DNA from: Paremcibacter congregatus
GTDB lineage: Bacteria; Pseudomonadota; Alphaproteobacteria; Sphingomonadales; Emcibacteraceae
Reading direction: 5' to 3'
Assembly (NCBI RefSeq): GCF_006385135.1
Contig: NZ_CP041025.1
Span: 1,829,501 to 1,893,500, forward strand
Length of the DNA: 64,000 nucleotides
In this document: positions 2,867-28,275 of the stretch, piece after piece
How positions within the stretch are numbered: the first letter of the stretch is position 1
How the letters are laid out: every line of letters begins with the position of its first letter
Translations under genes and position numbers: made by a program
Notes under the pieces: model-generated
The model's database searches: none
Told to the model about the DNA's origin: nothing
The model's input: the letters and a program-made list of their open reading frames with translations, nothing else

Positions 2867-4420
2867 ATGACGGCAAAACCAGCCTTTTACATCACGACGC
2901 CAATCTATTACGTCAATGACATTCCCCATATTGGCCACGCCTACACCACGCTGGCTTGTGATGTCATGGCGCGGTTCAAGCGTCTGGACGGTTATGACGT
3001 GATGTTCCTGACGGGCACCGACGAGCATGGCCAGAAGGTGGAAAAATCCGCCGCCGCCAAGGGCAAGCAACCGATCGAATTTTGTGATGAAGTCTCACAA
3101 CGTTTCCGTGATCTGGCGGAATTCATGAATTTCTCCCATGATGATTTTGTCCGCACTACCGAAGAACGCCATAAAATCGCCTGTCAGGCCCTGTGGCGCA
3201 AACTCGAAGACAGCGGCAATATCTACCTTGATAAATATTCCGGTTGGTATTCGGTGCGCGACGAAGCCTACTATACAGAAGGTGAATTGCTTGACGGTGA
3301 GGGCGGTGAGAAACTTGCCCCGACCGGGGCGCCGGTGGAATGGGTCGAGGAAGAAAGCTATTTCTTCAAACTGTCCGCCTTCGAAGACAAGCTTCTTACC
3401 TGGTATGATCAACTTCCGGAAACCGTTTTGCCCAAAAGCCGCAAGAATGAAGTGAAAAGCTTTGTTGAAGGCGGCTTGCGTGATCTGTCTGTGTCCCGCA
3501 CCAGTTTTTCCTGGGGTGTGCCGGTGCCGGGCAATGATAAACATATCATGTACGTCTGGATCGATGCCCTGACCAATTATCTGACCGCCATCGGCTATCC
3601 CGATATGGCCGGTGAGGCGTTCCAGAAGTTTTGGCCCGCGGATGTACATATGGTCGGCAAGGATATCCTGCGCTTTCATGCGGTCTATTGGCCGGCCTTT
3701 CTGATGGCTGCCGATATCGCACCGCCAAAACGGGTCTTTGCCCATGGCTGGTGGACCAATGAAGGTCAGAAGATTTCAAAATCTATCGGCAATGTCATCG
3801 ATCCTTTTGAAATTGTAGAAGAATTCGGCCTGGATCAGGTGCGTTACTTCCTGATGCGCGAAGTGCCGTTTGGTAATGACGGTGATTTTTCCCGCAACGC
3901 CATGATGAGCCGCACCAACGCTGATCTCGCCGGTGGCCTGGGCAATCTGGCGCAGCGCTCCCTCAGCATGATCTTCAAGAATTGCGACGGCCAGATACCG
4001 GTCTGCGGTTCCTTGACTGAGGATGATACCACCATCCTGGCGGCGCTTGACAGTCAGTTGGACAAAGTGCGTGATCAGATGGAAAACCAGATGTTCCACA
4101 AGGCGTTGGAGGTGATTTTTAATCTTGAATCCGCCGCCAATATCTATTTTAATGATCAGGCGCCCTGGGCTTTAAAGAAAACAGATCCGGAGCGGATGGC
4201 GACCGTGCTGTATGTTACCGCCGAGATCGTGCGCCAGATGGCGCTGCTGATCCAGCCCTTCATGCCGGACAGTGCCGCGAAGCTGCTCGACCAGTTAAAA
4301 ATTCCGGCGGACCAACGCGGCTTTGACCAGCTGGGCGAGGTGGGCCGCCTGGCCTCGGGCGTTGCGCTCGATAAACCGGAAGGGGTCTTTCCCCGTTATG
4401 TGGAAGCGGAAAAAGCATGA
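2867..4420 (+). CDS. metG: Methionine--tRNA ligase
   Basis: A class I aminoacyl-tRNA synthetase that charges tRNA-Met. The HIGH signature appears as HIGH in DIPHIGHAYTT (about residue 22), and the KMSKS loop as KISKS (about 304). The length of 517 residues fits the short form without a C-terminal tRNA-binding (Trbp111-like) domain, common in Alphaproteobacteria. The stop overlaps the start of the next gene (ATGA, 4 bases), so it is coupled to the TatD gene. Confidence 0.97.
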   Translation: MTAKPAFYITTPIYYVNDIPHIGHAYTTLACDVMARFKRLDGYDVMFLTGTDEHGQKVEKSAAAKGKQPIEFCDEVSQRFRDLAEFMNFSHDDFVRTTEERHKIACQALWRKLEDSGNIYLDKYSGWYSVRDEAYYTEGELLDGEGGEKLAPTGAPVEWVEEESYFFKLSAFEDKLLTWYDQLPETVLPKSRKNEVKSFVEGGLRDLSVSRTSFSWGVPVPGNDKHIMYVWIDALTNYLTAIGYPDMAGEAFQKFWPADVHMVGKDILRFHAVYWPAFLMAADIAPPKRVFAHGWWTNEGQKISKSIGNVIDPFEIVEEFGLDQVRYFLMREVPFGNDGDFSRNAMMSRTNADLAGGLGNLAQRSLSMIFKNCDGQIPVCGSLTEDDTTILAALDSQLDKVRDQMENQMFHKALEVIFNLESAANIYFNDQAPWALKKTDPERMATVLYVTAEIVRQMALLIQPFMPDSAAKLLDQLKIPADQRGFDQLGEVGRLASGVALDKPEGVFPRYVEAEKA

Positions 4421-7979: not shown

Positions 7980-8007
7980 ATTTACCATAATATAAATTGT
8001 GTCGTCA
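7980..8007 (+). other. attL: dif-like Xer site, left junction of prophage 1
   Basis: The left arm ATTTACCATAA and centre TATAAA match the XerD half of dif (reverse complement of E. coli dif, recalled from memory: arm ATTTAACATAA, centre TATACA). The right arm TTGTGTCGTCA is degenerate against the XerC arm TTATGCGCACC. Reading: the left arm is host DNA and the right arm belongs to phage 1. The stop codon of the prophage 1 repressor (TAA, minus strand, 7982-7984) falls in the host-derived arm. Confidence 0.8.
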
Positions 8008-8398: not shown

Positions 8399-8414
8399 CT
8401 ACGTATGTACGTAA
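8399..8414. promoter_or_regulatory. TACGTA-type palindromic element ahead of repressor 1
   Basis: The 16-base sequence CTACGTATGTACGTAA lies 12 bases upstream of the repressor start codon. The same 16 bases precede the otherwise different repressor of prophage 2 (27781-27796, opposite strand). Longer versions of the motif recur at the early/late boundary of both phages. It is a candidate regulator-binding site. Confidence 0.5.
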
Positions 8415-8497: not shown

Positions 8498-8555
8498 TGC
8501 ATCCTGCTAACTGCTGAGAAGCATTTTGGTAAATTTGCACTTATATTCCTCCCTT

Positions 8556-8583
8556 GGGGCCTCTGTCCGGCCGGACATGCCCC
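8556..8583 (+). promoter_or_regulatory. GC-rich hairpin in early leader, conserved in both prophages
   Basis: A perfect 14-base palindrome TGTCCGGCCGGACA (8564-8577) is enclosed by GGGGC (8556-8560) and GCCCC (8579-8583). It lies about 30 bases before the first early gene. The same structure occurs at 27633-27660 in prophage 2. It could be an RNA leader structure, an attenuator, or a DNA structure used in replication or packaging. No run of T follows directly, so it is not a typical terminator. Confidence 0.5.
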
Positions 8584-8615
8584 GCACTTTTAGGGAGACA
8601 ACAAAAGGGAAGATC

Positions 8616-8816
8616 ATGGCTAAAGTAAAATTCTCCATAGACTTTGAATTTGATGAAGAGGAAAAAACATTTCATGTTTTTATTCCTTCTGCACCCGAAG
8701 GGATTTCTTGGAATGAGGAAGATATTCATGAAGCTTGTTCCAAGGCAATGACTGATTTTCCAGATGCACAGGATTGGGAGTTTTCGCTGTTTATTGATTT
8801 GGGAGATGAAGCATGA
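8616..8816 (+). CDS. Prophage 1 early protein, acidic, 66 residues
   Basis: A small acidic protein (MAKVKFSIDFEFDEEEKTF...), rich in Asp and Glu, with alternating strand-like residues. The start is ATG 8616 preceded by AAGGGAAG; an in-frame ATG upstream at 8526 lies before the leader hairpin and is less likely. It is the first gene of the early operon and identical in prophage 2. I do not recognise the family. Its acidity could suit a DNA-mimic or a protein-binding role, but nothing proves this. Confidence 0.75.
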   Translation: MAKVKFSIDFEFDEEEKTFHVFIPSAPEGISWNEEDIHEACSKAMTDFPDAQDWEFSLFIDLGDEA

Positions 8817-8962
8817 CCCGGATTTTTTGGATTACTTATGCGGCGTTGATTATTGCGGTTCTGATATTCGTTTCCGGCTGCTCCACCAAATTCAATGAAT
8901 GCCCGGAAATCCCCCAGTATCACGGCTGCTTTTACAAGGATTACCCGGAGTATCTGCCATGA
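8813..8962 (+). CDS. Prophage 1 small lipoprotein, 49 residues
   Basis: It begins with MTRIF, then a hydrophobic segment and a lipobox VSGC (Cys about residue 23), so a small inner- or outer-membrane lipoprotein is predicted. The mature part has further cysteines (NECPEI, HGCFYK). It overlaps both neighbours by ATGA. It is conserved in prophage 2 (27254-27403). It might act in superinfection exclusion or lysis; the early location favours the former, as inference only. Confidence 0.65.
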   Translation: MTRIFWITYAALIIAVLIFVSGCSTKFNECPEIPQYHGCFYKDYPEYLP

Positions 8963-9153
8963 GTAAGAAATACTGGCGGGATACCGTAGTAAAGCTTAAG
9001 GATCGTGACTGCAAAGCTAAAACCCTTACCAAAATAAGAGTGTTGTTAAATTCAGAAGCGGCAAAAACATACGATGGCTCACTTTCTGGCCCGCTTGGAC
9101 ACCCTAATGTTGAGGGCCTCTTTTTGCAGGTGAAGGAGATGGTGACGGAATGA
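8959..9153 (+). CDS. Prophage 1 early hypothetical protein, 64 residues
   Basis: A basic small protein (MSKKYWRDTVVKLKDRDCKA...) starting at ATG 8959, which overlaps the lipoprotein stop. It is almost identical in prophage 2 (27063-27257); one visible change is Gly to Ser near the end. It marks the last shared gene before the replication block diverges. I do not recognise the family. Confidence 0.7.
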   Translation: MSKKYWRDTVVKLKDRDCKAKTLTKIRVLLNSEAAKTYDGSLSGPLGHPNVEGLFLQVKEMVTE

Positions 9154-9485
9154 CCCTTGACCCTACAATTCTCACCTGTAATGAAAAACTTCTAAGACGC
9201 GCCGCCCGGCGTGATGTTCGCTTTGACAATCAGCTTGTGGTCTGGGCGAAAATTAAACACCTCTGGGAAATGTATGATTTCAGCATAGGCCAATGGCCCG
9301 CATATCTCGAAGCCAGCTATTTTTACGGCTGCATGTTGATGCGGGAAGGGGTGCAGGACGTACGTATAGGATTATTCCCTCACGCCGACAAAATCCCCCA
9401 GTCGCCACCCTTCGACCAGTCACCGGCCTTTCTCATGGGGATCGGTATTTTCCGCCCTTCCTACACACGTACGAAGGGTTTTTAA
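9150..9485 (+). CDS. Prophage 1-specific hypothetical protein, 111 residues
   Basis: A soluble protein of mixed composition starting MTLDPTILTC, coupled to the preceding gene by ATGA. It has no counterpart in prophage 2, where the same junction leads into a different membrane protein (26821-27066). It lies in the replication block ahead of Rep, so a link to replication is possible but unsupported by any motif I can see. Confidence 0.6.
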   Translation: MTLDPTILTCNEKLLRRAARRDVRFDNQLVVWAKIKHLWEMYDFSIGQWPAYLEASYFYGCMLMREGVQDVRIGLFPHADKIPQSPPFDQSPAFLMGIGIFRPSYTRTKGF

Positions 9486-9728
9486 ATGCGCCCAGAACTT
9501 AAACACAGTATTCAACTTGTGCAGGTCGCCATCGGCGAACATCCGCTATTCGACAATATCCCCCGGGATCAACAAATTCTGGCCCTAATCACATTGGCCG
9601 CAGGACTTGCAAGAAGTCATTCCGAAGAACTGCTTGCCAACCAGTCCAAAAATTCACGCATGAAGTGGGCAGACATGACCGTCAGGACTCTTGTCCCTGA
9701 TTTAGGCAACGGGGAGTCCGCGCAATGA
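9486..9728 (+). CDS. Prophage 1-specific hypothetical protein, 80 residues
   Basis: A small, probably helical protein (MRPELKHSIQLVQVAIGEHP...). It begins directly after the previous stop and ends overlapping a tiny membrane ORF. It is absent from prophage 2. I do not recognise the family. Confidence 0.6.
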   Translation: MRPELKHSIQLVQVAIGEHPLFDNIPRDQQILALITLAAGLARSHSEELLANQSKNSRMKWADMTVRTLVPDLGNGESAQ

Positions 9729-9793
9729 CTTTGATCATTCTAGGGGTGTTTCTGACGGTTTTAGGTTTTGCCGGGGTATGGGGGCAAAAATGA
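9725..9793 (+). CDS. Prophage 1 tiny membrane peptide, 22 residues
   Basis: The ORF MTLIILGVFLTVLGFAGVWG plus two residues is nearly all one transmembrane segment. It is coupled by ATGA to the gene before and to Rep after it. The prophage 2 protein at 26821-27066 begins with a similar hydrophobic stretch (MTLTMLILGTLGVILSILGI), which supports this as a real gene. Function unknown. Confidence 0.45.
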   Translation: MTLIILGVFLTVLGFAGVWGQK

Positions 9794-11070
9794 CAAATCC
9801 CTTGAAAGGTACGCAAGTAGAGTTGCCGCCCTTGTTTTTAAAGGATAATTTGGAACAGCTAAACGGCGCTCAAAAAAGGGACCGGCTTCGCACTGTGGCC
9901 GGGCAAATTTTAACCGGGGAACGGGTTTATAAATGCGGTCGCCACCGGATCGGGGCGATTGTCACAATTTCCGCCAGTTCGACCGGCGCTATGTTCAACG
10001 GCGTGGAGACTTGCGGCTCGATCTGGCATTGCCCCGTATGCGCCGAAAAAATTTCCAATAAACGGCGGCTTGAAGTGGCGGCGGCGATTGATGGCACAAA
10101 AGAGCGCCGGGGCGGTGTCTATATGCTGACACTCACAATGAAACATGCGCCATTCGATAAATGCGCCGCCTTGAAGGACGCTGTCGCGATGGCGTGGCGC
10201 AAGCTGCAAAATACGCGTGCCTGGCGCAGTATAAAAGAGGATCGCCAAATTTTCGGCACGATCCGGGCGCTGGAAATCACCCATGGCGCGAATGGGTGGC
10301 ATCCGCATTTACATATCCTGCTTCTGACCGAAAACGAGTTGTCAGAACATGAACAGGAAGAAACCCGTCTTGAGATTTTCGAGCAATGGGACAAAAAGAT
10401 TTATGCTTTAACCGGGCAATATTGCCATGCTGACGCTTGCGATTTACGGCCAACAAATTCCTCTGAATATCTCACCAAAGGTGCGGATCGCAAGGCCGGA
10501 AAAATGAAATGGGGCGCGGATCGCGAGATATCAAAGGCCAATATCAAGCAAGGGAAGGGCGGTAAAACGCCTTTTGAACTGCTGGAAGCGGCCTATTATG
10601 GCAATCGTCAAGCCGCCGCTATGTTCGCAGAGTATGCCGCCGCCTTCAAAGGGGCGCGACATATCACATGGACCCACGGCTTAAAAGATTTCTTTGAGAT
10701 TGCCGAAATTCTTGACGAAAAAATAGCAGAGATTAGCCCGGAAAAAGTCGCCGGACAGGATGAATTGCCATTCAGTGAAGATTTAAATATGCGGATGATC
10801 GTCGCTCTGGATCGCGGCACGTGGGCGGCGGTTTGTCGCCACAATTTACGCCCTGATCTGCTGGACGCAGCCTACAAGCATGGCCGCGCCGGTGTGGTGG
10901 GGCTGCTCGCGAAATATGGCCTTTCGGTCTGGCTGGGCACCGGTCACATTAACGAAGATCAGACGAATGCGCAGTTTTCAAATGACGGAAAAGTAATTTT
11001 CAATCGAGTGACAGCAAGGCCGCCCCGCCTTACGGAAATGCCTCACTCTGCAACACCATGGAAGGATTAA
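9790..11070 (+). CDS. HUH-endonuclease replication initiator Rep (rolling circle), type A
   Basis: This Rep should nick one strand at the replication origin and start rolling-circle replication. A zinc-type cysteine pair occurs in CGSIWHCPVC (residues 75-84), the metal-binding HUH motif in HPHLHILL (His 173 and 175), and the likely catalytic Tyr 227 in EYLTKG; this layout is typical of plasmid Rep proteins of the CxxC/HUH group. I choose ATG 9790 because it overlaps the upstream stop (ATGA); ATG 9778 is possible and gives 430 residues instead of 426. Prophage 2 has a different Rep in the same slot. Confidence 0.85.
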   Translation: MTNPLKGTQVELPPLFLKDNLEQLNGAQKRDRLRTVAGQILTGERVYKCGRHRIGAIVTISASSTGAMFNGVETCGSIWHCPVCAEKISNKRRLEVAAAIDGTKERRGGVYMLTLTMKHAPFDKCAALKDAVAMAWRKLQNTRAWRSIKEDRQIFGTIRALEITHGANGWHPHLHILLLTENELSEHEQEETRLEIFEQWDKKIYALTGQYCHADACDLRPTNSSEYLTKGADRKAGKMKWGADREISKANIKQGKGGKTPFELLEAAYYGNRQAAAMFAEYAAAFKGARHITWTHGLKDFFEIAEILDEKIAEISPEKVAGQDELPFSEDLNMRMIVALDRGTWAAVCRHNLRPDLLDAAYKHGRAGVVGLLAKYGLSVWLGTGHINEDQTNAQFSNDGKVIFNRVTARPPRLTEMPHSATPWKD

Positions 11071-11071
11071 A

Positions 11072-11374
11072 ATGACTGTCACAAACGAAGTCATCGGCCA
11101 CACCCAATGCCCGGATTGCAAGGCTAAAGTTGAACGCCGGATCAATAAGAACCGAAAAGTCTACTGGCACTGCGATGGTCGGGCCGATGATCCGCAGTGC
11201 AACGCCGCGTTTAAACATGGTGCGGCCATGTCGAGACGCTTGATTGCCGCCGCCGCAAAACCTCAACCCTCAAACGACAACGAACCACAGGAGACTATTG
11301 AACATGAAGAAGACAACACCGCCAGCAAACGACAATCTGGAAATTCAGGACGCGCCGGAATTGGATGTTTCTGA
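11072..11374 (+). CDS. Prophage 1 zinc-ribbon-like protein, 100 residues
   Basis: The N-terminal half has CPDC (residues 13-16) and a later HC...C set, which looks like a small zinc ribbon; the C-terminal tail is low-complexity and polar. The first 80 bases differ synonymously from the prophage 2 copy (24564-24866), then identity resumes, so one edge of the replication-block exchange lies here. It could be a DNA-binding accessory or late regulator. Confidence 0.7.
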   Translation: MTVTNEVIGHTQCPDCKAKVERRINKNRKVYWHCDGRADDPQCNAAFKHGAAMSRRLIAAAAKPQPSNDNEPQETIEHEEDNTASKRQSGNSGRAGIGCF

Positions 11375-12530: not shown

Positions 12531-12557
12531 TTACGTACCTACATGTACGTACGTAGG
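12531..12557. promoter_or_regulatory. TACGTA cluster at early/late boundary, prophage 1
   Basis: Repeated TACGTA units form an imperfect palindrome around CATG, directly after the ATPase gene. The equivalent cluster of prophage 2 lies at 23381-23407. It shares its core with the element ahead of the repressor genes, so one regulator could control both places. Confidence 0.45.
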
Positions 12558-12596
12558 AAATCAGCCATTTGCCACCATCATTAAAATCATGCGTAA

Positions 12597-17313: not shown

Positions 17314-17341
17314 AGGGTGTCCTTTAGGACGCTCTTTTTTT
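17314..17341. terminator. Bidirectional terminator between late genes and regulator, prophage 1
   Basis: The stem AGGGTGTCC pairs with GGACGCTCT (two G-U pairs) around TTTA and is followed by seven T; on the other strand the stem is followed by TTTT. It separates the plus-strand late operon from the minus-strand regulator gene. The equivalent at 18541-18572 has changed bases that keep the pairing. Confidence 0.75.
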
Positions 17342-17798
17342 ATGCTGCGGGGTTCAGGGGGACGTAATAGCCAGAAATGTGCAGTTTCCGAATAACCTGA
17401 TCCCGCCGATCTCCACGCTTCAGCATACCTTTTGCCAATTCAATCTTGCGCCGGGTCACATTATGATCAATCTCTTTTAAAATGGTGAGATCAGTCTGAA
17501 ATTTACGGATATACCGGGCTATGGTTTTGGGGTGATAATCAAGAACAGTTGCGATATGTTCAATACTGTAACCAGCCTGATATCGTGTCATGATAGCGCG
17601 TTGAAGTTTTAATTTTTGGAGCATTAGTTTTTCGGATTTTCGCAAATCTCGTTGCTCCGTCTTTTTTACTTGCACTTCACGTTGTTCGGCATCAACGGCC
17701 AGCCTTTCGACTGACTGCGCAAGGTTATTGATTAGTTTAGTTAACTGACGTAAGTCTCGGGCCGGCAAATGGTTTAATGTATTCAAGAGAGTACGCAT
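17340..17798 (-). CDS. Prophage 1 regulator with two helix-turn-helix segments, 152 residues
   Basis: The N-terminal half is a basic helical/coiled region (KTEQRDLRKSEKLMLQK). A first helix-turn-helix lies at YSIEHIATVLDYHPKTIARY and a second is possible near RRDQVIRKLHISGYYV. It has GGGGGAAAG as ribosome site. In the circular phage it would lie 17 bases downstream of the extended repressor reading frame, forming one leftward operon. Prophage 2 has a diverged protein of similar design at 18054. Role unknown; late or copy control is plausible. Confidence 0.65.
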   Translation of the reverse strand: MRTLLNTLNHLPARDLRQLTKLINNLAQSVERLAVDAEQREVQVKKTEQRDLRKSEKLMLQKLKLQRAIMTRYQAGYSIEHIATVLDYHPKTIARYIRKFQTDLTILKEIDHNVTRRKIELAKGMLKRGDRRDQVIRKLHISGYYVPLNPAA

Positions 17799-17888: not shown

Positions 17889-17916
17889 ATTTTCCATAAT
17901 ATAAATTATGCGCACT
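17889..17916 (+). other. Central dif-like site between the prophages; likely the active dif
   Basis: The arm ATTTTCCATAA, centre TATAAA and arm TTATGCGCACT match E. coli dif (reverse complement, recalled) at 24 of 28 positions. It is the only one of the three sites with two good arms. It is best read as a hybrid: left arm from phage 1, right arm from phage 2. It would be the site available for chromosome dimer resolution in this double lysogen. Confidence 0.8.
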
Positions 17917-18000
17917 CCGGAACTCTCTATCTCGTTTGTATAAAAGCCTTATTAACTTACTCTCCCCCGGCAAGTTGTTCGGTTTACGTTCTATTTACGG

Positions 18001-18047
18001 TTGATCCCTATGCTCCCCAACACTAAAATAACCTGTGTTTTGGGGAG
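18001..18047 (+). promoter_or_regulatory. Promoter and ribosome-site-masking hairpin for prophage 2 regulator
   Basis: TTGATC (18001-18006), a 17-base spacer and TAAAAT (18024-18029) make a candidate promoter. CTCCCCAA (18013-18020) pairs with TTGGGGAG (18040-18047), extended by CAC/GTG across a two-base bulge. The right arm holds the ribosome site GGGGAG of the TTG start at 18054. RNA starting at the local promoter lacks the left arm, whereas RNA arriving from upstream contains the full hairpin. Confidence 0.55.
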
Positions 18048-18053
18048 TAACAA

Positions 18054-18557
18054 TTGAGTAGAATTGATCCAGATATTCCCGGCCTGCCGTTCAGAAATTT
18101 TGAACATTCAGGCCGGGAACTTTTTTCTCAGGTAAATAAAATTCCACCTGAGGCCGCAAAATCCGTAGCAGAATTATTTGAAAAAATTGCAGGTGAATTA
18201 CATGAAGTTCATCAGACATTTTTACATCAAAAAGCTATAACAGCGGAAAGCAAAAAGAATATATTCAAACTCAAACAATTGCCTGTACAGGTGCAGGAAT
18301 GCCTCAACGTGGGCATGAGTTTTGAAGAAGCCGTATCTCACCTCAAGACCACCACAGGCGCGCCGCAAACAACCATTTATTCATACTGGTTAAGGCATAT
18401 CAAGCAACTCGAAAAAGATGCTTTTCAGGTGCGAGATAGGCAGGTTTGGGAAATGTACAATGAAGGATTGCCAGATCAAGAAATTGCCGATTTGTCGGAG
18501 CTGTCAAAGCGCCAAGTTCAGAGAATTATCCGCGAACATAAAAAAAGAGCGCCCTGA
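18054..18557 (+). CDS. Prophage 2 regulator with two helix-turn-helix segments, 167 residues
   Basis: It starts with TTG 18054 after GGGGAG. A helical N-terminal half is followed by a helix-turn-helix around MSFEEAVSHLKTTTGAPQTT and a second near the end (LPDQEIADLSELSKRQVQRI). Design and position match the prophage 1 regulator at 17340, with little direct identity. In the circular phage it lies 49 bases after the extended repressor frame. Its stop codon lies in the shared terminator. Function unknown. Confidence 0.62.
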   Translation: MSRIDPDIPGLPFRNFEHSGRELFSQVNKIPPEAAKSVAELFEKIAGELHEVHQTFLHQKAITAESKKNIFKLKQLPVQVQECLNVGMSFEEAVSHLKTTTGAPQTTIYSYWLRHIKQLEKDAFQVRDRQVWEMYNEGLPDQEIADLSELSKRQVQRIIREHKKRAP

Positions 18558-22204: not shown

Positions 22205-23050
22205 TTAAGCCTTTCTGATACCGACCTGCTCAATGATCAAGTCGTGATCCACCACCCCGGCGTCATACTCAAACTCGAGACGCAGTTTATGGGGTTTGTT
22301 GGGGTCAATCGGATTTCGGCCATTGATCACGTCTGTGTAACGTGCGGTCAATTGCTTGCCGGAAAGAACGAAAATATCCGCTTGAGGAGAATAACCAGCG
22401 GTTTCACGGAGGAAATCAAGCGTGTCCTTTGACGCGTCACATATTTTTTCCTGTCCAACATAGGCCTTCACGCCAAGTATTTTATCACTGAAGGCGTAAA
22501 TCGCATTGAACACGCGGCCCAGTTCAAACTCGATATTGACCACTTTTTTAGCCAGCCCCGCACAGTTGACCGTGACACGGTCCGTTGTGATGATTTCGCC
22601 GTTCGTGATATTGGCATTTCTCCAGATACGCGACGCCGACAATAGAGGGCTGGTTACGGCATTGAAGGTTACGACAATTTGGAAATTGTTGATATCCGCC
22701 ATGCCCCAACTGGTCCCGTCCTCGCCGATAGCTGTCAAGCTGTCAGGCTGCGAGAAAAACAGCGGTAAAATGCCGTCTTTCCATGGAATGCCTTTTTCTT
22801 CATTCATTGAAATAATCTCAGCGGGCGTCAATTCCATCTGAACCGTCCCACCTAGATAAACTTCAATTTTTTTCACATTGGTGATATAATTGGCCTTGGT
22901 GGCAGGGACAGGAACCGCGCCGAAAGAATGATGTAAAATGTTGCCGTAATAGGTGCCGATGACATCGACATCCAGAACCGCACGACCGCCAGAGACAACG
23001 CCGCTGAAAGAATTCATGACCGGTTCGACAATTCGAATAGCTTGAGGCAT
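22205..23050 (-). CDS. Prophage 2 major capsid protein (PM2 P2-like)
   Basis: Counterpart of 12870-13715, with the same 281 residues and a few conservative changes (KVEVY/KIEVY, FFAQ/FFSQ, AVVS/AVTS, APQSDIFVM/SPQADIFVL). Mixed capsids in a doubly induced cell are conceivable. The basis for the double jelly-roll call is given with the prophage 1 copy. Confidence 0.72.
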   Translation of the reverse strand: MPQAIRIVEPVMNSFSGVVSGGRAVLDVDVIGTYYGNILHHSFGAVPVPATKANYITNVKKIEVYLGGTVQMELTPAEIISMNEEKGIPWKDGILPLFFSQPDSLTAIGEDGTSWGMADINNFQIVVTFNAVTSPLLSASRIWRNANITNGEIITTDRVTVNCAGLAKKVVNIEFELGRVFNAIYAFSDKILGVKAYVGQEKICDASKDTLDFLRETAGYSPQADIFVLSGKQLTARYTDVINGRNPIDPNKPHKLRLEFEYDAGVVDHDLIIEQVGIRKA

Positions 23051-23341: not shown

Positions 23342-23380
23342 TTACGCATGATTTTAATGATGGTGGCAAATGGCTGATTT

Positions 23381-23407
23381 CCTACGTACGTACCTATATG
23401 TACGTAA
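23381..23407. promoter_or_regulatory. TACGTA cluster at early/late boundary, prophage 2
   Basis: Tandem TACGTA units around a TATATG centre, the counterpart of 12531-12557 with a slightly different middle. The outer units are conserved. Confidence 0.45.
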
Positions 23408-23426: not shown

Positions 23427-24086
23427 TTATTTTGGTTTCGGCACGCGCCCCTGCACCACGCTGGCTTGTTCAAACAGCAAATAGTCGAAGTTTCGCAATG
23501 ACATAATGGTGTTTTTATATTCGCGGCCGATTTCACCCTGCACCGTGTCGCGATCGCGCGCAGAGGCCAACCGCAATATGTACATAGCCGAACAGTTGCC
23601 GCGCCATTTGGTATGAACTTCTGCAATGCGCTGTGTCAGACCGTACGTATTAATCCCATAGTGACGGCCCCGAGAACAGATATTGCCAAACTGTTTAAAA
23701 TTGGCCTTCAATCCAGAAACAGGAAAGCAAGTGTTCATCTCATCAATCACGAATGTGATCTGAGGTTGATTTTTTTCGCCTGCAAAATATTTACTTTGCG
23801 CTTGCAAGATCAGGCGGGATAATTCATTTAAATCTTCTATCTCGTTACCACCTTCAGGCACAAATATGATTTTAAAGCTGGTCTTCCATTTCTTTTTGAG
23901 CGCCGCCCGAACGGCGGCAATGGTGTGACAGACCTCCCATCCACGCTTTTTGGAAAATTCCTTTGACCAATCTAAAGCAGGATCAAAAACCACAAGGCGC
24001 TTTTCGGACTTGATCAGGAATCGGGCAAGTGTTGACTTGCCCGACCCTGACGCGCCATAGATGCCGATCCGAACCGGCTGGCTCAT
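23427..24086 (-). CDS. Prophage 2 packaging ATPase, FtsK/HerA-type
   Basis: Counterpart of 11852-12511, with the same Walker A GASGSGKST and a Walker B written TFVIDE. More substitutions occur in the middle (KYFAGEKNQPQ against IYFKGVKNHPQ) than in other shared genes, so divergence here is uneven. Confidence 0.82.
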   Translation of the reverse strand: MSQPVRIGIYGASGSGKSTLARFLIKSEKRLVVFDPALDWSKEFSKKRGWEVCHTIAAVRAALKKKWKTSFKIIFVPEGGNEIEDLNELSRLILQAQSKYFAGEKNQPQITFVIDEMNTCFPVSGLKANFKQFGNICSRGRHYGINTYGLTQRIAEVHTKWRGNCSAMYILRLASARDRDTVQGEIGREYKNTIMSLRNFDYLLFEQASVVQGRVPKPK

Positions 24087-26820: not shown

Positions 26821-27066
26821 TTATCGAATTGTGGTGATGTGGTGTTCGGCCTTAAGGCCGGGTGTTTTGTTTTCAAAGGGAAGGCGAAATTTTGAGATTT
26901 CAAGGTCAAGGCCGGAGCGCGCGGCCCCGGCCCCTTCCCTCTGAAAAACCGCCACGGGCACCACCCCGGGACGGCAAAAGCACGTAAATTCTTTGATAAT
27001 GTCCATGATCCCAAGAATGGACAGGATCACGCCGAGAGTGCCGAGTATCAACATTGTTAAGGTCAT
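26821..27066 (-). CDS. Prophage 2-specific membrane protein, 81 residues
   Basis: A hydrophobic N-terminus (MTLTMLILGTLGVILSILGI) followed by a basic, possibly disordered tail. The start overlaps the shared early gene by ATGA, exactly where prophage 1 enters its own gene (9150). The N-terminal part resembles the tiny membrane peptide of prophage 1 at 9725. Confidence 0.55.
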   Translation of the reverse strand: MTLTMLILGTLGVILSILGIMDIIKEFTCFCRPGVVPVAVFQREGAGAARSGLDLEISKFRLPFENKTPGLKAEHHITTIR

Positions 27067-27257
27067 TCCGTCACCATCTCTTTCACCTGCAAAAAGAGGC
27101 TCTCAACATTAGGGTGTCCAAGCGGGCCAGAAAGTGAGCCATCGTATGTTTTTGCCGCTTCTGAATTTAACAACACTCTTATTTTGGTAAGGGTTTTAGC
27201 TTTGCAGTCACGATCCTTAAGCTTTACTACGGTATCCCGCCAGTATTTCTTACTCAT
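27063..27257 (-). CDS. Prophage 2 early hypothetical protein, 64 residues
   Basis: Counterpart of 8959-9153, with one visible change. It is the last shared early gene before the replication block. Confidence 0.7.
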   Translation of the reverse strand: MSKKYWRDTVVKLKDRDCKAKTLTKIRVLLNSEAAKTYDGSLSGPLGHPNVESLFLQVKEMVTE

Positions 27258-27403
27258 GGCAGATACTCCGGGTAATCCTTGTAAAAGCAGCCGTGATACT
27301 GGGGGATTTCCGGGCATTCATTGAATTTGGTGGAGCAGCCGGAAACGAATATCAGAACCGCAATAATCAACGCCGCATAAGTAATCCAAAAAATCCGGGT
27401 CAT
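27254..27403 (-). CDS. Prophage 2 small lipoprotein, 49 residues
   Basis: Counterpart of 8813-8962, with the lipobox VSGC after one hydrophobic segment; overlaps both neighbours. Confidence 0.65.
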   Translation of the reverse strand: MTRIFWITYAALIIAVLIFVSGCSTKFNECPEIPQYHGCFYKDYPEYLP

Positions 27404-27600
27404 GCTTCATCTCCCAAATCAATAAACAGCGAAAACTCCCAATCCTGTGCATCTGGAAAATCAGTCATTGCCTTGGAACAAGCTTCATGAATATCTTCCT
27501 CATTCCAAGAAATCCCTTCGGGTGCAGAAGGAATAAAAACATGAAATGTTTTTTCCTCTTCATCAAATTCAAAGTCTATGGAGAATTTTACTTTAGCCAT
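27400..27600 (-). CDS. Prophage 2 acidic early protein, 66 residues
   Basis: Counterpart of 8616-8816, with an identical protein; first gene of the early operon. Confidence 0.75.
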   Translation of the reverse strand: MAKVKFSIDFEFDEEEKTFHVFIPSAPEGISWNEEDIHEACSKAMTDFPDAQDWEFSLFIDLGDEA

Positions 27601-27632
27601 GATCTTCCCTTTTGTTGTCTCCCTAAAAGTGC

Positions 27633-27660
27633 GGGGCATGTCCGGCCGGACAGAGGCCCC
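27633..27660 (-). promoter_or_regulatory. GC-rich leader hairpin, prophage 2
   Basis: Same palindrome and flanking GGGGC/GCCCC as 8556-8583. Sequence identity between the prophages begins just upstream of it, so it belongs to the shared module and not to the immunity block. Confidence 0.5.
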
Positions 27661-27673
27661 AAGGGAGGAATAA

Positions 27674-27755
27674 TGTTAAGCGTCATTTAACACTTAATCT
27701 TATATTCATATGTAGTTCAGGAAGTCAACTATAAAACGTTAAGTGTCGTTTAACA
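27674..27755 (-). promoter_or_regulatory. Prophage 2 early promoter flanked by two operator copies
   Basis: On the minus strand TTGACT (27723-27728), an 18-base spacer and TATAAG (27699-27704) form the early promoter. Two 19-base copies of an inverted repeat lie on its two sides: TGTTAAGCGTCATTTAACA (27674-27692) and CGTTAAGTGTCGTTTAACA (27737-27755), each with GTTAA/TTAAC half sites. These are strong candidates for repressor 2 operators. Prophage 1 has none of them. Confidence 0.65.
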
Positions 27756-27780
27756 TATAATATAATACAATGTCGTAATG

Positions 27781-27796
27781 TTACGTACATACGTAG
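27781..27796. promoter_or_regulatory. TACGTA-type element ahead of repressor 2
   Basis: Reverse complement of the 16 bases at 8399-8414, 14 bases before the repressor start. It is conserved although repressors and operators around it are not. Confidence 0.5.
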
Positions 27797-27810: not shown

Positions 27811-28275
27811 ATGAGACGTGATCTAAACTGGTATATGAACCAAGCAAAACAGCTTAATAATATTAAATCAGATAGAAAACTCGCAATTGAACTAAAGGTA
27901 TCAAGCGTTGGCTTATGGCGGCATCCTGAACGCCCTGTTGTTCCTGAACTATCTGTAATGGTGAGATTGGCCAAGATGGCGGGAGTGCCCGTAGAAATAG
28001 GCTTGATTGATCGTGATATTTGGGTAGCAGGCTTTAAAGCACCAGAGACCGTCCCTTTTTATGAAAAAATCCTCAAACAATTCCCCAAATATGCAGCGGC
28101 ATTATTAATGGCTTGTTTAGTATACAGCACTGATTTTGACACTGGTGTTATGGCAAAAGGGAACACAGGAGAAACAAACGGACACATGATAGTTCCTAAC
28201 TATAAATTATGCGCATATTGCCATGATCATACACTGGTCCGGGACAAGGTGATGTTGAATACGTCCTCCAGTTGA
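27811..28275 (+). CDS. Prophage 2 repressor-like regulator (DUF3693-like), C-terminus encoded by host DNA
   Basis: A 154-residue homologue of the prophage 1 repressor, with helix-turn-helix SDRKLAIELKVSSVGLWRHP. The start is ATG 27811 after AAAAGGAAA; the frame is open from 27778 but that part is the TACGTA element. The gene crosses the attachment site at 28190-28217: the last 19 codons are chromosomal sequence. In the excised circle the frame would instead continue 29 codons to a TGA at 18002-18004, giving 164 residues. Repressor function is inferred from its place next to operators. Confidence 0.75.
   Translation: MRRDLNWYMNQAKQLNNIKSDRKLAIELKVSSVGLWRHPERPVVPELSVMVRLAKMAGVPVEIGLIDRDIWVAGFKAPETVPFYEKILKQFPKYAAALLMACLVYSTDFDTGVMAKGNTGETNGHMIVPNYKLCAYCHDHTLVRDKVMLNTSSS
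28190..28217 (+). other. attR: dif-like Xer site, right junction of prophage 2
   Basis: The centre TATAAA and right arm TTATGCGCATA match the XerC half of dif. The left arm TAGTTCCTAAC is degenerate. Reading: the left arm is phage 2 DNA and the right arm is host DNA. Joined with the left arm of 7980-8007 it rebuilds the empty host site. Confidence 0.78.

Follow-up and report, generated by a model that had tools for sequence, protein, structure and literature searches.

The closest described parallel to the locus discussed here is the tailed mycobacteriophage BPs. According to its published account, BPs has attP in its repressor gene, the short form made by the prophage is stable and active, the long viral form is inactive and tagged for degradation, and the C-terminal piece lost in the prophage is 33 residues (PMC4557955). 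The filamentous phage XacF1 offers a second parallel. Its report documents integration at dif with attL and attR both sequenced, and locates attP in ORF12, a frame that integration may split (PMC4076744). An attP inside the repressor is already known, then, in BPs and its relatives, and an attP inside the regulator of a dif-integrating filamentous phage is known for XacF1. Two further reports propose dif-like sites for NO16, PM2 and Jorvik (PMC9966536, PMC10589892).

The window considered in this work is a stretch of 64,000 nucleotides, bases 1829501-1893500 of the closed 4.19 Mb genome of Paremcibacter congregatus. It holds two prophages, P1 (9909 nt) and P2 (10301 nt), lying head to head between three dif-like sites, L, M and R (Table 1). 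Judged from their genes, both belong to the PM2-like phages (order Vinavirales). The capsid protein of prophage P2 also has a P2_C match of 19 bits, under the cut-off, an endolysin with a Hydrolase_2 domain is encoded in the prophages, and there was no integrase match among the 10 window proteins scanned. P1 and P2 have most of their DNA in common, in inverted orientation (92-100% in long blocks), including an identical 612-base block at 8544-9155 and 27061-27672; the exceptions are the regions of the repressor, of attP and of the gene that comes after it. Where the replication gene lies (9778-11070 in P1, 24882-26213 in P2), the large proteins are barely alike (16%) despite the long shared inner blocks, which points to a swapped replication module.

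Table 1. Features of the two prophages, with positions counted from the first base of the window
Feature	Position	Strand	Remarks
Site L, junction inside P1 repressor	7980..8007	-	degenerate phage XerC-side arm, host XerD-side arm
P1 repressor, lysogen form, 134 aa	7982..8386	-	phrog_638 E 5.5e-5
P1 HTH protein gene, next after repressor in circle	17340..17798	-	Pfam HTH_38 E 1.3e-7
P1 circle tail, 25 codons	17819..17893	-	follows 134 common residues
Site M, junction common to both prophages	17889..17916	-	near-canonical dif
P2 circle tail, 29 codons, LRNSLSRLYKSLINLLSPGKLFGLRSIYG	17915..18001	+	basic and amphipathic; TGA 18002-18004
P2 HTH-like protein gene, next after repressor in circle	18054..18557	+	HTH_23 E 5.8e-4, below cut-off
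Major capsid protein of prophage P2, PM2 P2 type	22205..23050	-	Pfam P2_N 34.1 bits, cut-off 25
Packaging ATPase of prophage P2, PM2 P9 type	23427..24086	-	phrog_2666 E 2.6e-21; aligns with PM2 P9
P2 repressor, lysogen form, 154 aa	27811..28275	+	phrog_638 E 1.9e-5
Uncharged hydrophobic stretch of P2 repressor, AAALLMACLVYST	28093..28131	+	13-residue Kyte-Doolittle mean 1.88
Site R, junction inside P2 repressor	28190..28217	-	degenerate phage XerD-side arm, host XerC-side arm
Host-encoded codons of P2 lysogen form (19), YCHDHTLVRDKVMLNTSSS	28216..28272	+	stop 28273-28275

Several observations concern the surroundings of these genes. A TACGTACNTACGTA-like motif occurs 13 times where 0.29 occurrences are expected (both strands, at most 2 mismatches), and only inside the prophages. 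Its places (8400-8413, 12532-12559, 23379-23396 and 27782-27795) are directly upstream of each repressor and, in each phage, at the corresponding inner position, and it may be a regulator site common to both. Two copies of an imperfect palindrome, GTTAAGYGTCRTTTAAC, lie between the P2 repressor and the divergent early genes (27675-27691 and 27738-27754); none was found near P1, and we regard these copies as a candidate P2-specific operator. The genomes with the nearest similar prophages belong to the same taxonomic order as the window's host. A search of IMG/VR with the ATPase and capsid proteins of the window, G405 and G101 gave no close relatives, and an alignment of the ATPase yielded the records L038 and L039. 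A search with the replication protein matched contigs of Emcibacter MAGs and one contig of Kordiimonas. Contig L054, from an Emcibacter MAG, encodes at 9725-11302 a relative of the P2 replication protein with 51% identity, in an element that has no PM2-like capsid genes but a different gene set and, judged by eye, a tyrosine-integrase-like protein. The contigs L053-L055 were dropped as relatives, having no repressor or capsid match.

The initial annotation had claimed that the P2 repressor crosses its attP after codon 135, ending in the lysogen with 19 residues read from the host and in the circle with 29 phage residues. Reading both forms confirms each part of this, with the start and stops as first given. 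The first 135 codons are the same in the two forms, and the lysogen protein consists, in order, of an HTH, a hydrophobic stretch, a linker, residues encoded by attP, and the host-encoded residues. An alternative start is possible 33 bases upstream, at 27778; the P1 repressor aligns with that of P2 from 27811. AlphaFold is confident for the HTH part only of the P2 repressor, and a fold search of the PDB gave weak matches only, with E 0.49 at best, among which HTH proteins were numerous. In P1 the lysogen stop, TAA, sits in the host half of site L. In the circle form, TTATGGAAA from attP stands in place of the host's TTATGGTAA, which lets the frame run on for another 25 residues. Two features of BPs are thereby found in the window: an attP inside the repressor frame, and a C-terminal shortening on integration.

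Both repressor frames cross their own site at the same place and read outward into the host. The two attP sites had been described as different in sequence yet alike in position, which holds: the degenerate arm is the XerC-side one in P1 and the XerD-side one in P2. They had also been called independent, and this must be qualified, since P1 and P2 have most of their DNA in common and their repressors are 43% identical. The two sites in the window are not fully independent witnesses, and the argument for selection is carried by a broader survey.

Searches with the capsid family found matches in 10 of the 385 genomes covered for the class, in 8 of 396 for the order and in 11 of 398 for the phylum; each of these counts includes the genome from which the window comes. 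Repressor profiles matched 9 of 396 and 11 of 385 genomes. Our sample is every prophage for which a repressor and both junctions were found (n=18). The frame was read in the lysogen, and for crossing prophages the circle was read by joining the two phage half-sites. The repressor frame crosses the site in 11 of the 18 (P1, P2, G402, G431, G405, G441, G426, G101, G406, G237 and G105), which come from 10 genomes, nine of the prophages being additional to P1 and P2. It does not cross in the other seven (G009, G095, G429, G975, G1062, G1051 and G847; in G975 only half of the far site matches), nor does it in PM2, whose presumed dif lies outside the frame of orf c. In G847 the repressor stop is inside the phage arm, before the crossover, and in G095 and G1051 the dif-like site is just past the stop, by 17 and 27 nt. 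The non-crossing repressor of G009 (L025:4638-4973), with a dif-like site about 100 nt after its stop, ends in KKKLAA, which we take to resemble an ssrA-type ending. Two further prophages, G373 and G872, had only the repressor junction found and lie outside the 18; the repressor crosses there. Records with a missing junction or repressor, or with another repressor type, were left out of the counts (G021, G069, G116, G291, G349, G487, G781, G786, G887, G988 and G1073), as were G002 (a 3.4 kb contig with an ambiguous site), the Vibrio records L037 and L101, and the Thalassospira plasmid L100, in which no site was found. In L038, a circular record by its 60-nt terminal repeat, the repressor has both the hydrophobic stretch and a tail; the record was not counted, having two rival attP candidates. 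G449 and G081 were rejected: they gave XRE-like proteins, and the surrounding DNA that was scanned matched neither capsid nor ATPase.

What separates the two groups is the kind of repressor. An uncharged hydrophobic stretch lies between the HTH and attP in all 11 crossing repressors, and among the eight non-crossing ones (PM2 included) only G847 has one, the rest being mostly of a shorter kind. The stretch was defined as a 13-residue Kyte-Doolittle mean of at least 1.6, a threshold set after the data had been seen, and the association gives about 2e-4 in a one-sided exact test done by hand and uncorrected for relatedness. Comparison of these sequences indicates that the in-frame site is a trait of a repressor subtype and not a rule. 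The initial annotation had proposed a survey of attP against the repressor stop, and had argued from P1 and P2 that the layout is selected. The survey finds both arrangements, in frame and outside it, and the argument survives in a narrower form: crossing in 11 prophages, phage-only basic amphipathic tails and the filamentous phages described below favour selection, but of a subtype. The counter-examples that the annotation had named, related prophages with the site outside the frame, do exist, but they tell only against the other subtype.

The sites themselves have a consistent design. L, M and R are each 28 bp, dif-like, and bound both prophages at the host dif, where host XerC and XerD presumably recombine attP with dif. 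Site M is the sole near-canonical dif in the whole genome (1 match at up to 3 mismatches), and its halves derive from the two phages, neither from the host. P1 enters its site from the XerC side and P2 from the XerD side. The attP arms are of opposite sense relative to the repressor, and therefore P1 and P2 are inverted relative to each other. The repressor-side arm is degenerate in all 11 crossing prophages, differing from the arm at the far junction at 5-9 of 11 positions, whereas the tail-side arm matches the far junction with 0-2 of 11 positions different. Summed, this is 79/121 against 10/121, and it holds in either dif orientation; for P1 and P2 the far junction is site M, so there the upstream arm is compared with neighbouring phage DNA and not with host DNA. 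The central six bases agree in 10 of the 11. Integration leaves a crippled junction in the repressor and rebuilds a good dif at the other end.

Circle tails in the 11 prophages are 17-37 residues long and lysogen ends have 0-22 host-encoded residues, the lysogen end being the shorter in every case; in P1 and G406 the host half-site provides a stop that attP lacks. Over 316 codons the tails contain no stop, while this DNA has 16 and 24 stops when read in its two remaining forward frames. They contain 56 Lys+Arg and 6 Asp+Glu. Their net charge sums to +50, where shuffles give 15.5 +/- 6.7, and their hydrophobic moment to 6.82, where shuffles give 4.30 +/- 0.38; neither value was reached in any of 1000 single-base, stop-free shuffles, although it is important to realize that the prophages are partly related. 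The best internal control is the host-encoded ends in the same frame, which vary freely in length and kind. The six of at least 7 residues have no excess of charge (net 2 versus 4.7 +/- 3.5) or of moment (1.96 versus 1.97). As far as sequence can tell, it is the tail and not the host end that carries the marks of a selected protein sequence.

Other properties of the tails fill in this picture. In all 11 circles the repressor stop is 16-49 nt ahead of a start codon with a plausible ribosome site, which makes the repressor and the gene behind it look like a single operon in the circle. The tails of G431 and XacF1 resemble an amphipathic helix less than they do a membrane helix whose end is basic. 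The sole usable close pair, G405 and G441 (28 codons), has dN 0.24 and dS 0.38, while for P1/G402 and for P1/P2 the tails align no better than shuffles do. No ssrA-like tag was seen by eye at any of the 11 circle-form ends, which are YYPI, SIYG, VPVR, IQIC, LTFS, LTSS, ATQS, CQYA, PVFA, ISPC and HSPA.

PM2-like and filamentous phages have unrelated structural genes. A search with the G405 repressor matched the Stenotrophomonas phages SMA6 and SMA7, and a search with the SMA6 regulator matched Xanthomonas phages, giving 17 records in all. Nine were read (XacF1, Cf1c, Cf2, phiXv2, phiLf, fSU1, SMA6, SMA7 and phiSHP2), the others being RefSeq or strain duplicates by name. All nine regulator frames contain a dif-like site, preceded by a hydrophobic stretch and followed by a tail (for example MFKAIRRWLARILPRSPALLWHGA in SMA7 and MSKRVRRLLRSFVAALTPWGRRWPAGWRSVHA in Cf2), and in the records of Cf2, phiXv2 and phiLf the site is annotated within the gene. 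The seven distinct tails, with the nearly identical XacF1, Cf1c and Xv2 counted once, have a net charge of +35 (shuffles 16.0 +/- 6.0, p 0.001) and a moment of 3.70 (2.94 +/- 0.34, p 0.012). The family phrog_638 spans both groups, with E-values of 1.1e-23 for Cf2 and 7.3e-36 for SMA6 beside those of P1 and P2 in Table 1. Pfam DUF3693 had no match to the P2 repressor up to E 10 or to that of P1 up to E 1.

The fSU1 record (L108, PQ067315.1) deserves separate mention. It is a circular record of 10956 bases with dif-like sites at 3549 and 10279, and it seems to include host DNA; the phage proper would be the roughly 6.7 kb between the two sites. In the deposited form the regulator has a non-basic stretch at its end. 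Joining the half-sites yields a tail that matches the phiLf tail residue for residue over 28 positions and so supports the reading of the circles.

We consider it fairly likely that integration edits the repressor by way of the attP at the end of its gene, so that the tail-less form is active and the tailed form inactive or short-lived. The circular phage encodes an HTH, a hydrophobic stretch, a linker, attP residues and a basic, mostly amphipathic tail of 17-37 residues, and in the integrated prophage, presumably through XerCD, 0-22 host-encoded residues stand in place of this tail. The tail-less form must hold the prophage silent because the lysogen can make no other, and we infer that it is the working form, which would also give immunity. 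The tail is selected and present in the circle only, and it would thus most simply switch the repressor off there. How it might do so is suggested by its company: the tail is not ssrA-like but is paired with a hydrophobic stretch, which suggests the membrane. Presumably it resembles the membrane-targeting helices of MinD and FtsA. Tail and hydrophobic stretch together could hold the repressor at the inner membrane or feed it to a membrane protease; from its sequence the tail is probably inactivating and membrane-seeking. Lytic growth would then be the default until integration, and excision, by giving the tail back, would put an end to repression. Against this explanation it must be said that seven prophages and PM2 manage without the in-frame layout.

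It could be objected that both ends of the repressor are simply tolerated and that the tail plays no part in switching. The freedom of the host-encoded ends and the prophages that put dif just after the stop (G095 and G1051) are compatible with this. However, the signal of charge and amphipathicity is strong, is confined to circle tails and recurs in two virus groups; crossing accompanies the hydrophobic stretch; and the place of the site is kept in both dif orientations. We find the objection unlikely for these reasons. A less likely proposal still is a two-in-one gene, in which the hydrophobic stretch would be an internal signal sequence cut after AxA, and the circle would export a cationic amphipathic peptide, as a lysis helper or a cell-to-cell signal, that integration deletes. 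The stretch is followed by [AV]xA (AHA, AFA, AQA, VHA, ANA or ARA) in 14 of 18 repressors from both virus groups, versus 9.9 +/- 1.7 when shuffled (p 0.014), but this excess is mild, G406, Lf, XacF1 and fSU1 have no such motif, and the stretch is short in P1 and P2. Least likely of all is the reverse logic, with the tailed circle form as the stronger repressor that establishes lysogeny or limits circle replication and the tail-less form as a weaker one that allows induction; the infecting phage does carry the tailed gene and its tail is under selection, but the lysogen form alone is available to keep the prophage silent, and in BPs the long form is inactive (PMC4557955).

If repressor editing by integration is correct, phages with no integrase couple the decision between lysis and lysogeny to a chromosome-maintenance reaction of the host, with a repressor that is functional only after XerCD has put the phage at dif. 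One account of lysogeny would then serve PM2-like phages and the filamentous phages of Xanthomonas and Stenotrophomonas. It also names a tail of 17-37 residues whose role is directly testable in laboratory phages. More tentatively, one can imagine a transferable lysogeny cassette, carried by dsDNA tailless and ssDNA filamentous phages alike, in which a membrane-directed repressor detects integration by way of its own gene. A signal-like hydrophobic segment and a cationic amphipathic tail encoded by the circle only would pin or destroy the repressor at the membrane or export a peptide reporting the phage state, and XerCD integration at dif would strip this element; we think such a cassette possible but doubtful. 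Three things look new: that PM2-like phages have the layout, that the tails have a signature in common, and that the arrangement reaches across two viral realms. Our literature searches met no report of attP inside a Vinavirales repressor, no match joining an integration-dependent repressor with XerCD (subscription papers on Cf1/Cf2 immunity were outside their scope), and neither the common tail signature nor a cassette over two virus realms.

How, then, does this locus compare with the known systems? PM2, NO16 and Jorvik are like P1 and P2 in their P2-type capsid protein, P9-type ATPase and genomes of about 10 kb. The repressor-like orf c of PM2 differs in being short and without a hydrophobic stretch, with its stop 75 nt before the dif candidate, and the attP of Jorvik is outside its HTH gene. 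The filamentous phages have ssDNA, unlike the dsDNA tailless PM2-like phages, yet they are like P1 and P2 in having a phrog_638 repressor, a hydrophobic stretch, an in-frame dif-like site and a mostly basic circle tail; regulators of the XacF1 type have DUF3693 in part, and the window repressors do not. BPs, P1 and P2 all have attP in the repressor frame and a prophage form that loses a C-terminal piece of similar size. BPs, however, is a tailed phage that encodes an integrase next to its repressor and uses an ssrA-like tag, whereas P1 and P2 are PM2-like, have a dif-like site with no integrase among the proteins scanned, and have a tail that is basic and amphipathic and follows a hydrophobic stretch. 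By analogy, then, P1 and P2 most likely represent an XerCD/dif version of the integration-dependent immunity of BPs, with another kind of tail.
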